The position numbers were made by a program, and so were the translations under genes. From Terriglobia bacterium (GTDB taxonomy: Bacteria > Acidobacteriota > Terriglobia > Bryobacterales > Bryobacteraceae), in NCBI GenBank assembly GCA_020073615.1, contig JAIQEX010000006.1:1-64000 (forward strand): a stretch of 64,000 bases of DNA, read 5' to 3'. Of the stretch, positions 44,637 to 51,194 are shown one piece after another. Numbering within the stretch: position 1 is the stretch's first letter; every line of letters begins with the position of its first letter. The notes below the pieces were generated by a model, which was given only the letters and a program-made list of their open reading frames with translations, was not told where the DNA came from and did no database searches.

Positions 44637-45481
44637 TCATGCGTTCTTTCGCGCCGCGTATGACGCGCGCGTGATTCTCGAGGATCTCGCCGAGCAGATG
44701 CGCACGCTCACCAACCGCGCGGAGCTGGCGCGGGTGGTGGAGGACCATCTCGCCAAAGCGCTGCAACCGAGTTCCCTGGTGGTGTACCTGCGGGAACCGG
44801 GGGAGCTGCCGGCCGCGGCCTCCGCCGGCTCCCCGCCGGAGCTGGCCGCGATTCCCGCCAACCCGCCAGTTCTGACCGCGCTGGCGCGCTGCGGACGGCC
44901 CTGGGAGTTCCCCGTCGAGGGCGAAGAACGCGACGCACTGGCGCCGCTCCATCCCGACATGCTGGTTCCCTTGCCGGGGCGCGACGGGCGGCTCGTCGGC
45001 CCGCTGGTGTTGGGCGCGCGGCTTTCCGAGGAGTCCTACTCCGATGGTGCATCGAGGCGCGCTGGGTGGGCGTCGACTACCACGACTTTCTGGAGCTCAA
45101 CGGGAACCGCGCCGGGCTGGTTCTGGCCGACGTTTCCGAAAAAGGCGGTAACCCCCGGTGTTGTTGCGGCAGGATGGAACGGCGGAACGGCGGGCGGCCG
45201 CGGCGACCGTGGTGGGCCTGTTCGAGAACTGGGAATGCGCGGTGGCCGGGATCGAGCTCTGTCCCGGAGACCTGCTGGCGATTTTCAGCGATGGCGTCAC
45301 CGAAGCGACGCCCGACGACGAGGCGGAGTATGGCGAGGCCCGCCTGATCGAGGAGCTGCGCGCGAATCGCGGCCGGCCCGCCGAGGAGATCGTCACCGCC
45401 GTCCTGAGCGCCGTGCAGCGCTTCAGTGCCGGCGTGCAGTCGGACGACTTGACCTTGATGATTGCCCGCGCGCGGGCATGA
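44637..45481 (+). pseudogene. GAF-SpoIIE (PP2C-type) serine phosphatase, broken
   Basis: The first part is a GAF-like sensory domain: FRAAYDARVILEDLAEQMRT, ELARVVEDHLAKALQPSSLV, VPLPGRDGRLVGPLVLGARL. Near 45045 the frame and about 60 residues are lost. Fragments of the RsbU/SpoIIE phosphatase follow in another frame (CIEARWVGVDYHDFLELNGN, GLVLADVS), then a further deletion. The last part from 45158, AVAGIELCPGDLLAIFSDGV to LIEELRANRGRPAEEIV and QSDDLTLMIARARA, is the C-terminal half of the phosphatase. Metal-binding aspartates DG and DD remain but the centre is gone. Its 5' end joins the permease remnant. Confidence 0.7.
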
Positions 45482-45487
45482 CCGCCG

Positions 45488-45970
45488 TCACACCGGGCCG
45501 GGCGCTGCCGCCGCTTCCGGGGGACCGAGGCCCAGCGGCCCGAGAGTCCGGATCGCTTCCACCGTTTCCGTGAGCACCCGGACGTATTTTTCGCCCTCGC
45601 TGGCCGCGACAAAATCGAGCCGGCATCTCTGCTGGTCGATCCCGAACTGCTCGAGCATCTGCAACAGCAGGCGGTGGCGCTGGATGGCGCGGTAATTCCC
45701 TTCTTTGTAGTGACAGTCTCCCGCGTGGCATGCCAGGATCAGCACTCCATCGGCGCCCAGGCGGAAGGCCTGGAGCACGAACTCCGGCTCCACGCGGCCG
45801 CTGCACATGATGCGGATGACACGTACGTTATCGGGACAGGGTATCTGCGCGGCCCCCGCCTTATCGGCGCCGGCGTAGGAGCACCAATTGCAGAGAAAGG
45901 CGACGATCTTGGGCTCAAACGGCCCCGGGCTCGCGGCCTCGGTGGCTGCCAGGGTCATTGGTTCCGTCAT
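45488..45970 (-). CDS. mvhD: MvhD-like [2Fe-2S] subunit linking hydrogenase to HdrA
   Basis: The 160-residue protein matches the delta subunit of methyl-viologen-reducing hydrogenase: IVAFLCNWCSYAGADKAG, VRVIRIMCSGRVEPEFVLQA and CHAGDCHYKEGNYRA. These cysteines bind a [2Fe-2S] cluster that passes electrons from the hydrogenase to HdrA. Its ATG at 45970 overlaps the hdrA stop (ATGA), so translation is coupled. The C-terminus has an Ala/Pro-rich tail after about residue 145. Last gene of the operon; the convergent phosphatase pseudogene ends 6 bases beyond its stop. Confidence 0.92.
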   Translation of the reverse strand: MTEPMTLAATEAASPGPFEPKIVAFLCNWCSYAGADKAGAAQIPCPDNVRVIRIMCSGRVEPEFVLQAFRLGADGVLILACHAGDCHYKEGNYRAIQRHRLLLQMLEQFGIDQQRCRLDFVAASEGEKYVRVLTETVEAIRTLGPLGLGPPEAAAAPGPV

Positions 45971-47928
45971 TGCAGGATTGCCTCCATTTCCGCAAAGATC
46001 TGCGGGCTCGCAAAATGATGGGCCTGGATGGCCGCGGCGGGACAAGCCGCGCCACAGGTTCCACAGCCGTGGCACAGCAGTGCGTTCACTGAAGCCACCT
46101 GCTTGTCGGGCGGAAAACTGATGGCTTTGTAGGGACACACGCTGCCGCAGACCCGGCATCCCGAGCAGGCCAGCTCGTTGACCGCGGCGGTGATGGGATC
46201 GATGGTCAGTTTCCGTCCCTCGGCCAGGCCCGACAGAACGTAGCCCGCTGCCGCTATGCCTTGGCCGATGGCGCCGCGGATGTCCATGGGGGACTGGCAG
46301 GCGCCCGCCAGGTAAATGCCCCTAACTTTGCTCTGCGCCGCGTCCAGCTTGCCGTGCAGTTCCTGGAAGAAGCCGAACTGGTCGGGCGGCGTGTCCAGGA
46401 CTGCGCTCAGGCGGCCGGCGGATTCCGGACCGACCATCGCCGGGCAGAGGATGACCATGTCGGCCTCGATTTGCCCGGACGTCCCGGCGGTGTCCCGATA
46501 GCGAATGGTGTGATGGCCATCCTCGGCGGCCACTTGCAAATCCGCAATGTCGCCGTACCGCCAGAAGCTGGTCTGGGGGTCATGGCCGGCGTGCCGGCAC
46601 AGGGCGAACTCCTCCTTGCCAGGCGTAACCAGTTCCTTATAAAGGTGGTGGATCCTGCTTTCGGGAAGCTGCTTGCGAACCAGGTGGTTGAACTTGAAAG
46701 CGTAGTTGCAGCACACGCCCGAGCAGTACGGCTGGTGGTGTTCGTCCAAGCTGCCCACGCAGTGCACGATGGCGACGCTCTTGGGCGGCGTACCATCGGG
46801 GAGGCGAAGCTCGCCTCCAGTCGGACCGTTGCGGGCGAGCAGCCTTTCAAATTCCAGGCTGGTGTAGACTCCCGAAACACTGCCGTATCCCAGCGCCGGA
46901 AGCCGGGTGCAGTCGTACAGATCCGAGCCCACCGCCACCACGATGGCGCCCGCGCTGCGCTCCAGGAGCTTCGCGGAATCGTCATACCGCACGGCGCCCT
47001 CGACGGGACAGGCGGCGCGGCACAATTGGCAGTCCTCGCCGTGCGCTCGCAGGCAGGCATCAAACGCCAGGAAAGGCACGTTGGGCAATGACCCCGCAAA
47101 GGGCAACGAGATGGCTTTACGCTCATCCAGACCGTAATTGAACTCGTTCTTGGTCGCTGCCGGGCAGGCCGCGATGCATTCGCCGCAGCCCACGCACTTG
47201 ACGGTATCGACGTAGCGCGGCGCCTGTTTGATGGTGACGGCGAAATTGCCGTAGTAGCCCTTAACCTCGACCACCTCGGACAGGGTGAGAATTTCAATAT
47301 TGTGCGCGTGTTCGCCATGGAGCACCTCGCCCATCACCGGCTCCAGCAGGCAGGGACCGCACTCCATATTGGGAAACAGCTCTTCATAGCGCACCGGCAT
47401 GCCGCCGAGGACGGGCGTCTTCTCGACCAGCACGACCTTCCGGCCTGCTTCCGCCAGGCACAAGGCAGCCTTCAGGCCGGCCGGCCCGGCGCCGACGACC
47501 ACCACGTCGCGGCACACGTCCAGTTCTTTCCGTTCCAGGGGCTGGTGCAGTCCCACGCGCGCTACCGCGCCGCGGACCAACGCACTCGCCTTCGCCGTGG
47601 CCCGTTCCGGGTCCGGCGTGATCCAGGCCACGTGTTCCCGGATATTCGCGATCTGCAGGAAGTAGGGGTTCAGGCCAACCCTCTCCATGACCTGCATGAA
47701 GACGCCTTCGATTTCGCGCGGCGAACAGGCGGCGATCACCACCCGCTCCGGGCGATGCTCCGTCAGGTCCTGTTCCAGAAACTGCTTGCCCTCTTCGGAG
47801 CACAGAAACTCCGCCGTATGGACGTAGGCGACTTCGGGATTCTTCCCCAGATCGGCCGCCACCTTTTCGAAGTTCACCTTCTCGGTAATGGTGCCTCCGC
47901 AGGCACAAAGATAAACACCGGTTTTCAT
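45967..47928 (-). CDS. hdrA: HdrA-like flavoprotein of heterodisulfide reductase type
   Basis: HdrA holds the FAD at which electrons are bifurcated. The 653-residue protein has the N-terminal CACGG motif (GVYLCACGGTITEKVNFEKV), the FAD motif VVGAGPAGLKAALCLAEAGR near residue 145, a ferredoxin motif CVGCGECIAACP near residue 238, a further cysteine group HGEDCQLCRAACPVEG, and two C-terminal [4Fe-4S] motifs, CSGCRVCGSVCP and CHGCGTCGAACP. Length and order are as in methanogen and bacterial HdrA. HdrB and HdrC, which would reduce a disulfide, are not in the operon or elsewhere in the window. It overlaps the protease gene upstream by 4 bases and mvhD downstream by 4. Confidence 0.95.
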   Translation of the reverse strand: MKTGVYLCACGGTITEKVNFEKVAADLGKNPEVAYVHTAEFLCSEEGKQFLEQDLTEHRPERVVIAACSPREIEGVFMQVMERVGLNPYFLQIANIREHVAWITPDPERATAKASALVRGAVARVGLHQPLERKELDVCRDVVVVGAGPAGLKAALCLAEAGRKVVLVEKTPVLGGMPVRYEELFPNMECGPCLLEPVMGEVLHGEHAHNIEILTLSEVVEVKGYYGNFAVTIKQAPRYVDTVKCVGCGECIAACPAATKNEFNYGLDERKAISLPFAGSLPNVPFLAFDACLRAHGEDCQLCRAACPVEGAVRYDDSAKLLERSAGAIVVAVGSDLYDCTRLPALGYGSVSGVYTSLEFERLLARNGPTGGELRLPDGTPPKSVAIVHCVGSLDEHHQPYCSGVCCNYAFKFNHLVRKQLPESRIHHLYKELVTPGKEEFALCRHAGHDPQTSFWRYGDIADLQVAAEDGHHTIRYRDTAGTSGQIEADMVILCPAMVGPESAGRLSAVLDTPPDQFGFFQELHGKLDAAQSKVRGIYLAGACQSPMDIRGAIGQGIAAAGYVLSGLAEGRKLTIDPITAAVNELACSGCRVCGSVCPYKAISFPPDKQVASVNALLCHGCGTCGAACPAAAIQAHHFASPQIFAEMEAILQ

Positions 47929-48389
47929 TCTGTCGACTCCAGGTGGCGGACAACGTCCTCCACGACCAGCGGCACCGCGTGCCGCACGTGCGGCGTGAGA
48001 TTTTCACTGAAGGTGGACACGTCGTCCGCCTCCACGGCCCAGATGCGGACGTCGCGCGGCAGGCGCAACCCCGCCAATGCGCCCAGTTCCAGGGCTACGG
48101 ACAAGCTCGCGTCATGGCTCGAGCAGGTATTCCTGCTGTGGAGCAAGGCCCCCGGGCCGAGAGCGTAAACCGTGCCTGGGCTGCCGCCGCCGCCCGTCAT
48201 GGCGTCGACGATGATGGCGCGCTCGTGCCCGGCCATGGCCTCCATGAGGTTCATGCCCCCACAAAAGATCTGCGTGACTCCCACATCCGAACGGCCGCGC
48301 AATCGCTCTTCCAGGCAATGGGCGATTTCGAGGCCCACACGGTCATCCGCCAAAACCGGGTTCCCCAATCCAATGACGATCGTGTCCAT
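47925..48389 (-). CDS. hydrogenase maturation endopeptidase (HyaD/HycI/FrcD type)
   Basis: The 154-residue protease cuts the C-terminal tail from the nickel-loaded large subunit. It begins MDTIVIGLGNPVLADDRVGL with the family's GxGNPxxxDDxxG motif and the nickel-sensing aspartate, and has DAMTGGGGSPGTVY and a histidine in SHDASLSVALELG. The ATG at 48389 directly follows the large-subunit stop (48390-48392). Its place between the large subunit and hdrA means each hydrogenase is made with its own protease. Confidence 0.93.
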   Translation of the reverse strand: MDTIVIGLGNPVLADDRVGLEIAHCLEERLRGRSDVGVTQIFCGGMNLMEAMAGHERAIIVDAMTGGGGSPGTVYALGPGALLHSRNTCSSHDASLSVALELGALAGLRLPRDVRIWAVEADDVSTFSENLTPHVRHAVPLVVEDVVRHLESTE

Positions 48390-49877
48390 TCAGCCCTCCC
48401 GCCGAAAAGACCGGATCTGCTCGCCGCTGTGGTTGTTGATGTTGACGACCAGGGGCATTTCTCCGGGAAGGGCGTGCGTGGCGCAGGACAGACAGGGGTC
48501 GTACAGCCGGAATGCCATTTCGATCCGGTTCAGCAGGCCCTCCTCCACTACGCGGCCGGCGCGGATGAGCTTCTCGGCCGCTTTGCGGATGGACATGGCA
48601 ATCGCGGCGTGGTTGTTGGTGGTGCCGACGATGAGGTTTACCTTGGTCAGGATGCCGTCCGGACCGGCCGAGTAGTCGTGCGTCAAGGTGCCCCGCGGCG
48701 CCTCTACGCTGCCCACGCCGCGGCCGACGCAAGTCACGGGGAGGTTGCGGACGTGGGGCGAGGTGATTTCCGGATCGGTGGCCAGCTCGAGCATGTGCTC
48801 GGCGGCGTATAGCAGTTCGATCAGCCTGGCCCAGTGCGTGGCCAGCCGGTGGTGAACCGGCCGGTAGCGGCCGCCGGCCTTGGCGGAGCCGAAGGCCTCT
48901 TGGAATTTCTCGAACTGTTCTTGTGCCCGCGGTGTCGCCAGGCCATCGCAGACGTTGAGCCGGGAAAGGGGCGTAGCGCTATAGACACCGCTGTCCTTGC
49001 CTCCGCGAAAGCCCTTCCAGCCAACCTGCTTCAGGTAGGGGAACTTCAAATAGGTCCATGGTTCCACCCGCTCCGCAATGTGGGCGGTGTAGTCGGATGG
49101 ATCGTACTTGACCAACTCGCCGCCGTCCGGGTCCACCACGCGGATTTCGCCGTCGAACAGGTTCAGCCGGTTGTGCCCGTCCACGGTTCCCATCGAGTAA
49201 GTGGCGTCGTGATACACGTCGGAGCGCACCATCTCCACATACTCGGGGTTCTGGAGCACGATGGCCTCAAACACACCCAGGCTGAACAACGCAAACTCGA
49301 TGTTCTGGCGCGCGATCTCTTCTATCTCCCGGCGTTCTTCTTCCGAGACGGACTTACTCCAACCTCCCGGGAGCCCGGCCACCGGATGGATTTGCCGGCC
49401 GCCCAACATCTGGATCACGCGGTGATTGCGGGCGCGGCATTCGATGACCCGCTTGCCCACGTCGAGGCCCACCTTGCGAATCACGCCGAGGATGTTCCGC
49501 TCGGCGGGCGGCGCGTCGGGGCCCACGATGAAATCCGGTCCGCCCAGCGCATAGAAATGCGTGGTATGGTCCGTGACGAAGAAGGCCATGTACAGCAGTT
49601 CGCGAATCTTCTTTGCCGCGGCGGGGGGTTCGACCGCAAACAGCCGGTCGAGCGCCTTCACCGCAGCCATGTGGTGCGCTTCGGGGCACACGCCGCAGAT
49701 GCGGTTGGTAATCACCGGCATCTCTTCGGCCCGGCGGCCCACGCAGAACTGCTCGAATCCTCTGAGCTCGGGAACCTGAAAATAGGCGTTGGCGACGTTG
49801 CCCTCTTCATCGAGAAAGATCTCGATCTTGCCGTGGCCTTCCAGGCGGGTAATGGGATTGATGGTGACCCGTTTCAT
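48390..49877 (-). CDS. mvhA: [NiFe]-hydrogenase large subunit, Mvh (group 3) type
   Basis: The catalytic subunit carries the NiFe(CN)2CO site. The N-terminal L1 motif is TNRICGVCPEAHH and the C-terminal L2 motif DPCLSCATH, so all four nickel ligand cysteines are present. Twenty-seven residues follow the final His (ALPGEMPLVVNI to REG), the tail expected to be cut by the protease encoded next. At 495 residues it fits the F420-non-reducing Mvh/Vhu group, not the membrane-bound group 1. Its ATG overlaps the small-subunit stop (ATGA at 49874-49877). Confidence 0.95.
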   Translation of the reverse strand: MKRVTINPITRLEGHGKIEIFLDEEGNVANAYFQVPELRGFEQFCVGRRAEEMPVITNRICGVCPEAHHMAAVKALDRLFAVEPPAAAKKIRELLYMAFFVTDHTTHFYALGGPDFIVGPDAPPAERNILGVIRKVGLDVGKRVIECRARNHRVIQMLGGRQIHPVAGLPGGWSKSVSEEERREIEEIARQNIEFALFSLGVFEAIVLQNPEYVEMVRSDVYHDATYSMGTVDGHNRLNLFDGEIRVVDPDGGELVKYDPSDYTAHIAERVEPWTYLKFPYLKQVGWKGFRGGKDSGVYSATPLSRLNVCDGLATPRAQEQFEKFQEAFGSAKAGGRYRPVHHRLATHWARLIELLYAAEHMLELATDPEITSPHVRNLPVTCVGRGVGSVEAPRGTLTHDYSAGPDGILTKVNLIVGTTNNHAAIAMSIRKAAEKLIRAGRVVEEGLLNRIEMAFRLYDPCLSCATHALPGEMPLVVNINNHSGEQIRSFRREG

Positions 49878-50863
49878 TGCGATCTCCTACGCAGAATGGA
49901 GCCGGCCAGGCTGTACCGGTACAGGGTTCCGGCCAGATCCGGAATCCCCGCCAGGATGGCGTCGGCTTGCCGGGCTACCTGCTCTTCGGTCAGCCCTTTG
50001 TAGCCGCCCAGGTCCAGATCCGAGCCCAGCGCCGCCAGCATTTTCGCGCCCTGGTCGGCGACGCCTTCGGGCGGACCGTAGCAGCCGGTACACGGCATGT
50101 TCACCGCGGGACAAAGCGCTCCACAGCCGTCCCGGGTCGCGATACCCAGGCAGATCAGGCCCTGTTCCAGGAGACACTGCCGCGGGTCGGGAACGATCTC
50201 ATAGGTCCGGTGGAATGCCGCGATCTTCTTGTCGCTTTTGACCTTTGCGCACTCCTGGCAAACCGTGGAACATCCTCCCCCGAGCACGCTGCCGCGCGGA
50301 GGCAAGGGAGTCCCTTGAATCACCGCCTCCACGACGCTCCAGATCTGCTTGGATTCCGGCGGGCAGCCGGGGATGTAGTAGTCCACCTCCACCACTTGGG
50401 GGAGCGTTTTGACGGTCTCGAAGAAAGCGGGAAGCTCCAGTTCGCCCTCGGGCACGAGCGTCGCCGTCTGCGGCAGAATGCCGCCTGGGTTGTCGAGCGA
50501 CGGACCCTCCAGGTAATTGGTGCGCATGTGTCCGGCCCTGGTCGACAGGTTGCTGAGCGCGGGAATCGCGCCTCCGGCGGAACACGAGCCATAGGCGATC
50601 AACAGTTGCGATTTCCTTCTCAACAGAAGCGCCATCTCTTCGTTTTCGCTGGTCCGTATGGCTCCGTTGAACAACGTGATGGCGATGGCGCCATCGTCCA
50701 GAGCTTCGATATCGCGGTACTTCGTATCGAGCAGACAAGGGCAGAAGAAGAAGTCGAAGTTTCGATCGACCTCGAGGATTTTCTCGTGCAGGTTGACCAC
50801 TGCAATCTCGCATCCCCCACACGAGGACGCCCAATACACACTCAGTTTCGGCTTATCCGGCAC
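49874..50863 (-). CDS. mvhG: [NiFe]-hydrogenase small subunit, Mvh (group 3) type
   Basis: The small subunit holds three iron-sulfur clusters. Ligand motifs are WASSCGGCEIAV near the N-terminus, AYGSCSAGGAIPAL, IPGCPPES, and in the last third GLICLGIATRDGCGALCP and MPCTGCYGPPEG. There is no Tat signal, so the enzyme is cytoplasmic. The GTG start at 50863 follows AAAGGAAGC. The gene stands 109 bases after the TusA-like gene on the same strand and overlaps the large-subunit gene by 4 bases. Confidence 0.95.
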   Translation of the reverse strand: MPDKPKLSVYWASSCGGCEIAVVNLHEKILEVDRNFDFFFCPCLLDTKYRDIEALDDGAIAITLFNGAIRTSENEEMALLLRRKSQLLIAYGSCSAGGAIPALSNLSTRAGHMRTNYLEGPSLDNPGGILPQTATLVPEGELELPAFFETVKTLPQVVEVDYYIPGCPPESKQIWSVVEAVIQGTPLPPRGSVLGGGCSTVCQECAKVKSDKKIAAFHRTYEIVPDPRQCLLEQGLICLGIATRDGCGALCPAVNMPCTGCYGPPEGVADQGAKMLAALGSDLDLGGYKGLTEEQVARQADAILAGIPDLAGTLYRYSLAGSILRRRSQ

Positions 50864-50972
50864 GGCGCTTCCTTTACTGTCTGGCTACAGTCCAACCGGC
50901 TGAACGGCGGCAGCCTTGGAGTCCGCCGGCGTTGGCCGCCAGCAGACTCTGAAATTGGCGGTCGGCCGGTGG

Positions 50973-51194
50973 CTAGATCCGCACCTGGCAGCGCTTGGCC
51001 GCGCCCTCACTCTTAATCCAGAGCAGCGTCTTCTTGGTCCGTTGACACCAGCCGCGCACGTCGGTTTCGAAGCTGGGGCAATCCGCCACCGCCTCCAGGA
51101 TTTCGCCGGGTTTCATCGAGAGAGCCTCGACGGTCATTTTGAGCGCAGGTTGCGGGCAAGGAAGTCCCTTCGCGTCTATCGTCTTTGTCGCCAT
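50973..51194 (-). CDS. TusA/SirA-like sulfur-carrier protein
   Basis: The 73-residue protein has the CPxP motif in DAKGLPCPQPALKMT (Cys13), followed by the amphipathic helix and the beta strands of the TusA fold. TusA proteins carry persulfide sulfur between enzymes. ATG at 51194 has GGAAGAG upstream. It heads the hydrogenase/HdrA operon, where a sulfur carrier is unusual except in Hdr-like sulfur-oxidation clusters. A second cysteine, in RGWCQRT, is not part of the motif. Confidence 0.88.
   Translation of the reverse strand: MATKTIDAKGLPCPQPALKMTVEALSMKPGEILEAVADCPSFETDVRGWCQRTKKTLLWIKSEGAAKRCQVRI

Follow-up and report, generated by a model that had tools for sequence, protein, structure and literature searches.

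A TusA-linked Mvh-HdrA hydrogenase operon without HdrBC in an acidobacterium: a possible H2/redox input module for signalling

RESULTS

A six-gene hydrogenase operon in an acidobacterial contig

We analyzed a 64,000-nucleotide stretch of DNA from a Terriglobia bacterium of the Acidobacteriota (positions 1 to 64,000 of contig JAIQEX010000006.1, assembly GCA_020073615.1), hereafter called the window, with the focus on positions 45488-51194 of its minus strand. Reading frames and translations revealed six intact genes there, in the order tusA-mvhG-mvhA-protease-hdrA-mvhD, and the gene tables of relatives revealed a recurring type with MvhG-MvhA-protease-HdrA-MvhD plus TusA and without HdrBC, which we call T-type. 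The tusA and mvhG genes are 109 bases apart, mvhA and the protease gene abut, and 4-base overlaps join mvhG to mvhA, the protease gene to hdrA, and hdrA to mvhD; the coordinates thus confirmed the layout described in a first-pass annotation of this DNA (Table 1). For mvhD, whose longest frame begins further upstream, the start was placed at the ATG at 45970, overlapping the stop codon of hdrA. Every product of the operon matched its own family in Pfam and NCBIfam scans.

Table 1. Genes of the operon at positions 45488-51194 of the window
Product	Residues	Position	Strand	Basis
TusA-like protein	73	50973..51194	-	PF01206 55.6 bits; T-type subfamily alignment; CPQP Cys13, Cys39 at the place of E. 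coli Asp45, Cys50
MvhG, hydrogenase small subunit (GTG start)	329	49874..50863	-	Oxidored_q6; NCBIfam VhuG 201 bits (below the cut-off of 450); 5odc_E 217 bits
MvhA, [NiFe]-hydrogenase large subunit	495	48390..49877	-	NiFeSe_Hases; VhuA 379 bits (below the cut-off of 800); 5odc_F 382 bits; trees
Hydrogenase maturation endopeptidase (HycI/HupD family)	154	47925..48389	-	PF01750; TIGR00072 99.8 bits (above the cut-off of 47)
HdrA, flavin adenine dinucleotide (FAD) and iron-sulfur flavoprotein, T-type lineage	653	45967..47928	-	8rvv_A/5odc_A E ~1e-135; cysteines; HdrA tree
MvhD/FlpD [2Fe-2S] subunit	160	45488..45970	-	PF02662 161.6 bits (scanned from 45991); 9sw2_D, 5odc_D

MvhA contains complete RICGVCPEAHH and DPCLSCATH motifs, which we take to be L1 and L2, respectively, and a C-terminal extension that the protease would be expected to cleave. 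Residues 2-473 of MvhA aligned with 5odc_F, residues 6-319 of MvhG with its solved counterpart 5odc_E, and residues 20-148 of MvhD with 9sw2_D and 5odc_D, while HdrA aligned end to end with the solved HdrA chains 8rvv_A and 5odc_A. Among the NCBIfam models, MvhA scored best against VhuA, followed by NiFeSe (161 bits), ShyA (160 bits), FrhA (150 bits), and HydA (115 bits), all below the cut-offs. Among the PDB chains, the scores were 382 bits for MvhA, 370 for HydL, 349 and 338 for other Mvh/Vhu chains, and 330 for HoxH, and the remaining listed chains reached at most 123 bits. The contrast was clearer for MvhG, with 217, 195, and 174 bits for MvhG/VhuG chains versus 80 for HydS and 63 for Hox. 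Judged by sequence, the locus appears to encode a cytoplasmic Mvh-type [NiFe]-hydrogenase (MvhA and MvhG) joined via MvhD to HdrA. This is the assignment that the first-pass annotation had made, and the nickel motifs that it had listed were likewise found complete.

The T-type operon recurs in several phyla

The scan of named genomes took the best 80 of 548 confirmed loci, so that the spread of T-type loci given here is a lower bound. The T-type clade was counted as 47 loci, comprising 45 from named genomes, the locus of genome G040, and that of the window (loci, genomes, and contigs of the window genome carry our working numbers L, G, and C). The hosts, as labelled in the records, include Acidobacteriota, Nitrospirota, relatives of Geobacter and Desulfuromonas, and others. 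The module is also present in records not labelled as metagenome-assembled genomes (MAGs), such as those of Geobacter sp. OR-1, Geobacter sp. AOG1, and Geomesophilobacter sediminis. TusA lay within the retrieved stretch at 39 of the 47 loci, and at five of the other eight (L173, L178, L183, L194, and L246) the contig ended partway through the module. A sister type, found at 35 loci and mostly in Chloroflexota, has the order HdrC-HdrB-HdrA-MvhD-MvhG-MvhA-protease and no T-type TusA; HdrB was present in the retrieved stretch at 25 of these loci, the others being short on the 5' side.

In the MvhA tree, from which two loci with a split mvhA were left out, the T-type rows formed a clade of 45 (Shimodaira-Hasegawa-like approximate likelihood ratio test, SH-aLRT, 99), and in the HdrA tree they formed a clade of 40 (SH-aLRT 100). 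A more careful MvhA tree of 42 rows, including five PDB references, placed all 11 sampled T-type rows in one clade with support of 100/99, and with midpoint rooting the bacterial lineage was separate from the methanogen Mvh references as well as from those for HoxH. The six-gene set recurs across several phyla, far beyond chance.

Within the phylum, large subunits were detected at E≤1e-40 in 102 of 396 genomes, and the surroundings of 54 loci were retrieved, best matches first plus a few weaker ones. Only G040 shared the gene order of the window, with TusA at the other end; the rest were HdrBC-linked, linked to another HdrA, or HdrA-free. Within the class, 26 of 399 genomes matched at 1e-120, and the order was not seen in the retrieved stretches of the other 25, three of which are short pieces.

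A dedicated TusA accompanies the module

Searches with the TusA subfamily at E≤1e-12 covered 45 T-type genomes (L176 was left out) and gave matches in 43 of them (42 at 1e-18), whereas the same query gave none in the 35 sister-type genomes. A single match was found in 34 of the 43 genomes and more than one in nine; some matches of about 49 bits look like other TusA proteins, including the sole match of G765. Across the 396 phylum genomes, the subfamily profile matched in only five, namely those of the window, G040, and the three that carry L170, L171, and L172. The first-pass annotation had named the absence of tusA in all relatives as something that would refute its proposal, and the counts show that the link is genuine, one weak match notwithstanding. 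A chance neighbour was rejected, since TusA occurs with the module on one side or the other, and also on the opposite strand. At L170 (5690-10610), L171 (9567-14078), and L172 (2272-8806), a TusA of the same subfamily lies beside MvhD and HdrA without a T-type hydrogenase, and the set at L170 adjoins a STAS protein and a HATPase protein.

The window TusA scored above the PF01206 cut-off and below that of the NCBIfam TusA equivalog. In the 42 module-linked copies, the CPxP cysteine (Cys13) and the counterpart of E. coli Asp51 are invariant, and Cys39 occupies the place of E. coli Asp45 throughout. In the E. coli IscS-TusA structure, Asp45 hydrogen-bonds the NH of the active Cys19, and mutation of Arg27 or Phe58 abolishes IscS binding (PMC2854127). 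These two IscS-contact residues are replaced in 41 (kept in one) and in all 42 of the module-linked copies, respectively. E. coli YedF likewise has a cysteine at the Asp45 place. The pattern suggests that the module TusA is a dedicated protein with two neighbouring thiols, which may form a disulfide or carry and resolve a persulfide.

The other TusA of the window genome (contig C23; L134 9510-10794) has, by eye, Asp where the module TusA has Cys39, and it is followed by two frames that by eye look like DsrE-type proteins. Dsr-type sulfur metabolism was considered as the context of the module TusA and rejected, as no DsrA above the cut-off was found in the genome, with one weak match of 33.5 bits.

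HdrBC is missing from the locus while the HdrA cysteines are kept

No HdrB match was found at the window locus, as first described, nor in the retrieved stretches of the 47 T-type loci; loss of HdrBC from the window locus by misassembly was rejected because of this shared absence. The window genome (G000; 6.96 Mb, 252 contigs) does have HdrBC, in a separate operon on C224 (L039) that encodes HdrA, HdrC, HdrB, a second HdrA, MvhD, MvhG, MvhA, and a protease and is preceded by HdrD-like, EtfB, and EtfA genes. The closest named relative of the window MvhA is that of a Solibacter record (79%), and the same Solibacter genome has an HdrB 88% identical to that of the window genome.

The complex might borrow such HdrBC from elsewhere in the genome and be an ordinary MvhADG-HdrABC with split genes and an incidental TusA. 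With the C224 HdrB as query, an HdrB-like protein was found at E≤1e-20 in 30 of 46 T-type genomes, which together with the C224 operon itself is compatible with borrowing. However, none was found in the other 16, including G040, which is 99% complete (completeness is given for few of the others), so that sharing of a distant HdrBC offers no general answer. Moreover, the C224 HdrBC has an HdrA, MvhDGA, and a protease of its own in the same operon, and borrowing leaves the TusA link unexplained. We regard this explanation as very improbable.

Loss of cluster cysteines from the T-type HdrA was also rejected. All 26 cysteines common to the solved 8rvv chain and the 40 T-type HdrA rows are present in the window HdrA, indicating that the T-type HdrA should still be redox-competent. 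Two positions in HdrA (45967-47928) are recorded here as side observations: residues 178-196, around Cys190 and Cys193, are crowded with residues that separate T-type from other HdrA rows, and Cys495 is T-specific (97% Cys in T-type versus 61% Ser).

These features bear on our main alternative, a metabolic bifurcating hydrogenase in which the HdrA flavin would send some H2 electrons to ferredoxin and the others to a persulfide or disulfide carried on TusA, in place of the coenzyme M-coenzyme B heterodisulfide (CoM-S-S-CoB). The retention of the 26 cysteines shared with the solved bifurcating HdrA, the match of the subunits to solved MvhADG-HdrA complexes, the ties of TusA to the lineage rather than to the sister type, and the two invariant TusA cysteines, which should lie close together, all agree with it. 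It is nevertheless somewhat unlikely in our estimate, because the locus lacks HdrBC for disulfide chemistry, because a carrier of 73 residues would need fast reloading although its IscS-contact residues are not kept, and because the neighbourhood described next is unexpected for a plain energy enzyme.

Two further kinds of operon are noted. On C225 of the window genome (L040, 9253-17417) lies a second HdrBC-free hydrogenase operon, encoding an HdrA fusion of 1593 residues with Pyr_redox_2 and Fer4_20 domains, MvhD, MvhG, MvhA, and a protease; the identity of this MvhA is no more than 45-46%. Seven operons of the Acidobacteriota group (L039, L132, L139, L142, L144, L152, and L156) join EtfB, EtfA, and HdrD-like genes to HdrA-MvhD-MvhG-MvhA, possibly as a route from electron transfer flavoprotein (ETF) to hydrogenase.

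Chemosensory genes adjoin the module in relatives

Chemosensory genes were found within 1.5 kb at 21 of 46 T-type loci and at none of 119 other hydrogenase loci. When the range was widened to 9 kb, the numbers were 29 of 46 versus 1 of 119; these counts apply a 50-bit floor and leave out the window and three non-T-type loci without a usable MvhA span. Before the floor, the counts were 29 of 47 (including the window, which had no match) and 4 of 122. The weaker matches at T-type loci were an MCP (methyl-accepting chemotaxis protein) at L205 (56 bits), another at L193 (94 bits), and a CheW at L248 (104 bits). As controls from the same genomes, 0 of 28 HdrB loci (from the 30 matching genomes less G000 and G765, several loci being cut at contig ends) and 2 of 12 arbitrary stretches (chosen by hand, four from one genome) had chemosensory genes. 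Any signalling gene within 9 kb was found at 36 of 46 T-type loci versus 42 of 119 others, so that it is the chemosensory genes that account for the excess. The chemosensory neighbourhood of the T-type module (29/46 vs 1/119 and 0/28) is new here: titles and abstract starts in the openly searchable literature, with subscription literature mostly outside reach, yielded no paper that treats the TusA or chemosensory link of this hydrogenase.

By record labels, the 29 linked loci belong to Acidobacteriota, Nitrospirota, Thermodesulfobacteriota (relatives of Geobacter and Desulfuromonas), Acidulodesulfobacteriota, Margulisiibacteriota, Riflebacteria, and others. Selected neighbours were scanned with Pfam, which identified MCP, CheW, CheB, CheR, a CheA-type hybrid kinase, REC-GGDEF, and a PocR kinase. 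The arrangement varies from lineage to lineage. At L177 the MCP gene and tusA overlap by 4 nt, at L174 the MCP gene ends 33 nt before tusA, and at L185 and L241 an MCP gene sits between mvhD and tusA. A run of CheW, a small gene, MCP, CheB, CheR, and CheA follows tusA at L179 and L181, and a che run also directly follows tusA at L204. CheB-CheR-CheA genes precede mvhG at L210, L229, L237, and L238, where a same-strand GGDEF frame follows tusA, as it also does at L226 (Desulfuromonadales relatives). GGDEF frames before mvhG were seen at L182, L217, L223, L232, and L239, with Pfam confirmation for L182 and L223. The small gene, of about 135-150 residues, recurs in linked che clusters (L179 14383-14829, L181 6599-7057, L204 14085-14492, L210 124-537, and L248 19018-19437); the L179 copy had no Pfam match.

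There were 27 linked MCP frames, of which 23 were examined by a simple hydropathy scan, and 15 had at most 60 residues between the membrane spans. According to a survey of Geobacter chemotaxis genes, receptors with small loops more likely sense via associations with other proteins, and the word hydrogenase was not found in its text (PMC2577667).

The signalling genes might also act upon the hydrogenase. The complex would then serve as a ferredoxin-linked valve for H2 production, with chemosensory and cyclic-di-GMP signalling controlling its expression or activity and TusA supplying sulfur for assembly of the complex. The che genes and GGDEF frames of Desulfuromonadales relatives do share the strand of the module, and work cited in PMC7894505 gives the Geobacter Mvh a role in producing H2, not in taking it up. 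However, the nearest signalling neighbour is a receptor, not an output regulator, at L174, L177, L185, L196, and L199, and the sister type manages without such a TusA. A regulated valve therefore seems improbable to us.

Surroundings of the operon in the window genome

The 64-kb window itself contains three histidine-kinase/regulator genes, all more than 5 kb from the module, and no chemosensory gene was found in it. Two che clusters occur in the window genome, on C146 and C210, both unlinked to the module, and C170 has a short MCP-like frame that matches only part of the signalling domain (L260 8372-8905). An ortholog of the L177 chemoreceptor was sought in the genome and rejected, as only the distant MCPs on C146 and C210 and the short C170 frame were found. 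Tail to tail with mvhD, at 45158-45481 on the plus strand, lies a SpoIIE-type phosphatase gene of which just the C-terminal portion is present (positions 87-191 of the 192 in the profile); its upstream part is seen by eye in other frames, so that the gene looks broken.

DISCUSSION

A tentative reading as an input module

From the parts, the lineage, the TusA/HdrBC pattern, and the chemosensory neighbourhood of relatives observed here, we tentatively favour the view that the T-type operon is a H2/redox input module for signalling, although we hold this with less than even confidence. Given the intact motifs, H2 would be oxidized at the NiFe site, and the solved homologues suggest that electrons would pass from MvhG through MvhD to the FAD of HdrA. 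HdrA may then determine whether Cys13 and Cys39 of the TusA-like protein, a dedicated dithiol protein in place of HdrBC, are in the thiol, disulfide, or persulfide form. A linked regulator, or a chemoreceptor whose periplasmic domain is small or absent, would sense this state or the complex itself and give rise to chemosensory or cyclic-di-GMP output. For the window species, such a partner is missing next to the operon and would have to be encoded elsewhere in the genome.

A more specific proposal is that H2 is sensed here in a new way, by a group-3c-like [NiFe]-hydrogenase in which HdrA toggles the Cys13/Cys39 dithiol of TusA, read by chemoreceptors without a periplasmic sensor domain and feeding chemotaxis-type and cyclic-di-GMP signalling in several phyla. 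In this full form we consider it doubtful. If true, it would be, to our knowledge, the first HdrA-driven signalling module.

Several observations weigh against an input module. As the window has no chemosensory gene and its kinase and regulator genes are distant, the sensing role rests on the relatives, and 17 of the 46 relatives' loci have no chemosensory gene in the retrieved flanks, several of which are cut at contig ends. The chemosensory and signalling references were drawn from T-type loci, which favours similar finds, although the same references did find the che clusters of the window genome. The control sets were not matched for lineage, and Fisher tests on the same-genome controls ignore shared ancestry. 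Signalling genes in general are common near other hydrogenases as well. Large periplasmic domains occur in 8 of the 23 examined MCPs, and the second MCP of L185 and the MCP of L193 have extra cytoplasmic regions. On the enzyme side, the T-type HdrA has retained the cysteines that one would expect if it bifurcates, and the maturation protease and the MvhA C-terminal extension are present, whereas the sensory [NiFe] enzymes known to us are without them. Finally, co-location shows linkage and no direction; the hydrogenase could be an output, or could be co-regulated for H2-taxis.

The neighbourhood of chemosensory and diguanylate-cyclase genes in the relatives argues for a sensing role over plain energy metabolism. 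The first-pass annotation had proposed a sulfur-linked bifurcating hydrogenase. Its Mvh-HdrA enzyme with a TusA stands, and the same neighbourhood speaks against its purely metabolic role. A signalling module and a bifurcating enzyme could also both hold, if the same thiol state were product and signal.

Group 3c hydrogenases are usually treated as energy-conserving bifurcating enzymes. The widespread HdrBC-free T-type lineage, with a TusA of its own and chemosensory neighbours, suggests that part of the bifurcating H2 metabolism reported in surveys may be H2 sensing, which, if true, would call for a different reading of hydrogenase gene counts from soils and sediments. It makes testable which electron acceptor HdrA uses without HdrBC and how bacteria sense H2 for taxis or biofilm decisions, and the presence of the module in non-MAG records of Geobacter and Geomesophilobacter should make such tests practical.

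Comparison with known systems

In sHdr/TusA systems of sulfur oxidation, TusA occurs together with an HdrA-like protein and HdrB/HdrC-like partners. The T-type operon shares TusA and HdrA with them, but has a hydrogenase instead of HdrB/HdrC-like genes at the locus.

Among the closest known systems is the methanogen MvhADG-HdrABC complex (group 3c; PDB 5odc, 8rvu, and 9sw2), whose MvhA, MvhG, MvhD, and HdrA all have full-length T-type equivalents with the shared cysteines kept. The T-type differs in having no HdrB or HdrC at the locus, a dedicated TusA, the order G-A-protease-HdrA-D, a separate lineage, and scores below the NCBIfam equivalog cut-offs. Because HdrBC was searched for and is missing at the locus, we did not file the T-type as MvhADG-HdrABC.

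The first-pass annotation knew of no described system with this gene set. The set is, however, no one-off, as the multi-phylum lineage shows, and a member has probably been listed before. The Mvh cluster GSU2416-2423 of G. sulfurreducens is listed with MvhV, a methyl-accepting chemotaxis transducer, to which the parts of the two sources available give no role, and TusA is not named in the part of the first that was accessible (PMC7894505, PMC8691401). As the Geobacter loci found here are T-type, this cluster is probably of the same lineage.

Sensory hydrogenases are already classified in HydDB, which lists [NiFe] group 2b (linked to histidine kinases), group 2c (linked to diguanylate cyclases, putative), and [FeFe] group C2 (chemotactic, putative) (PMC5037454). 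The T-type, though built from Mvh and HdrA parts, would work in a similar way; a hydrogenase lies beside MCP, Che, histidine kinase, or GGDEF genes at many of the relatives' loci, but not in the window. These sensors belong to different enzyme groups, whereas the T-type is a group-3-like enzyme with HdrA, MvhD, and TusA.

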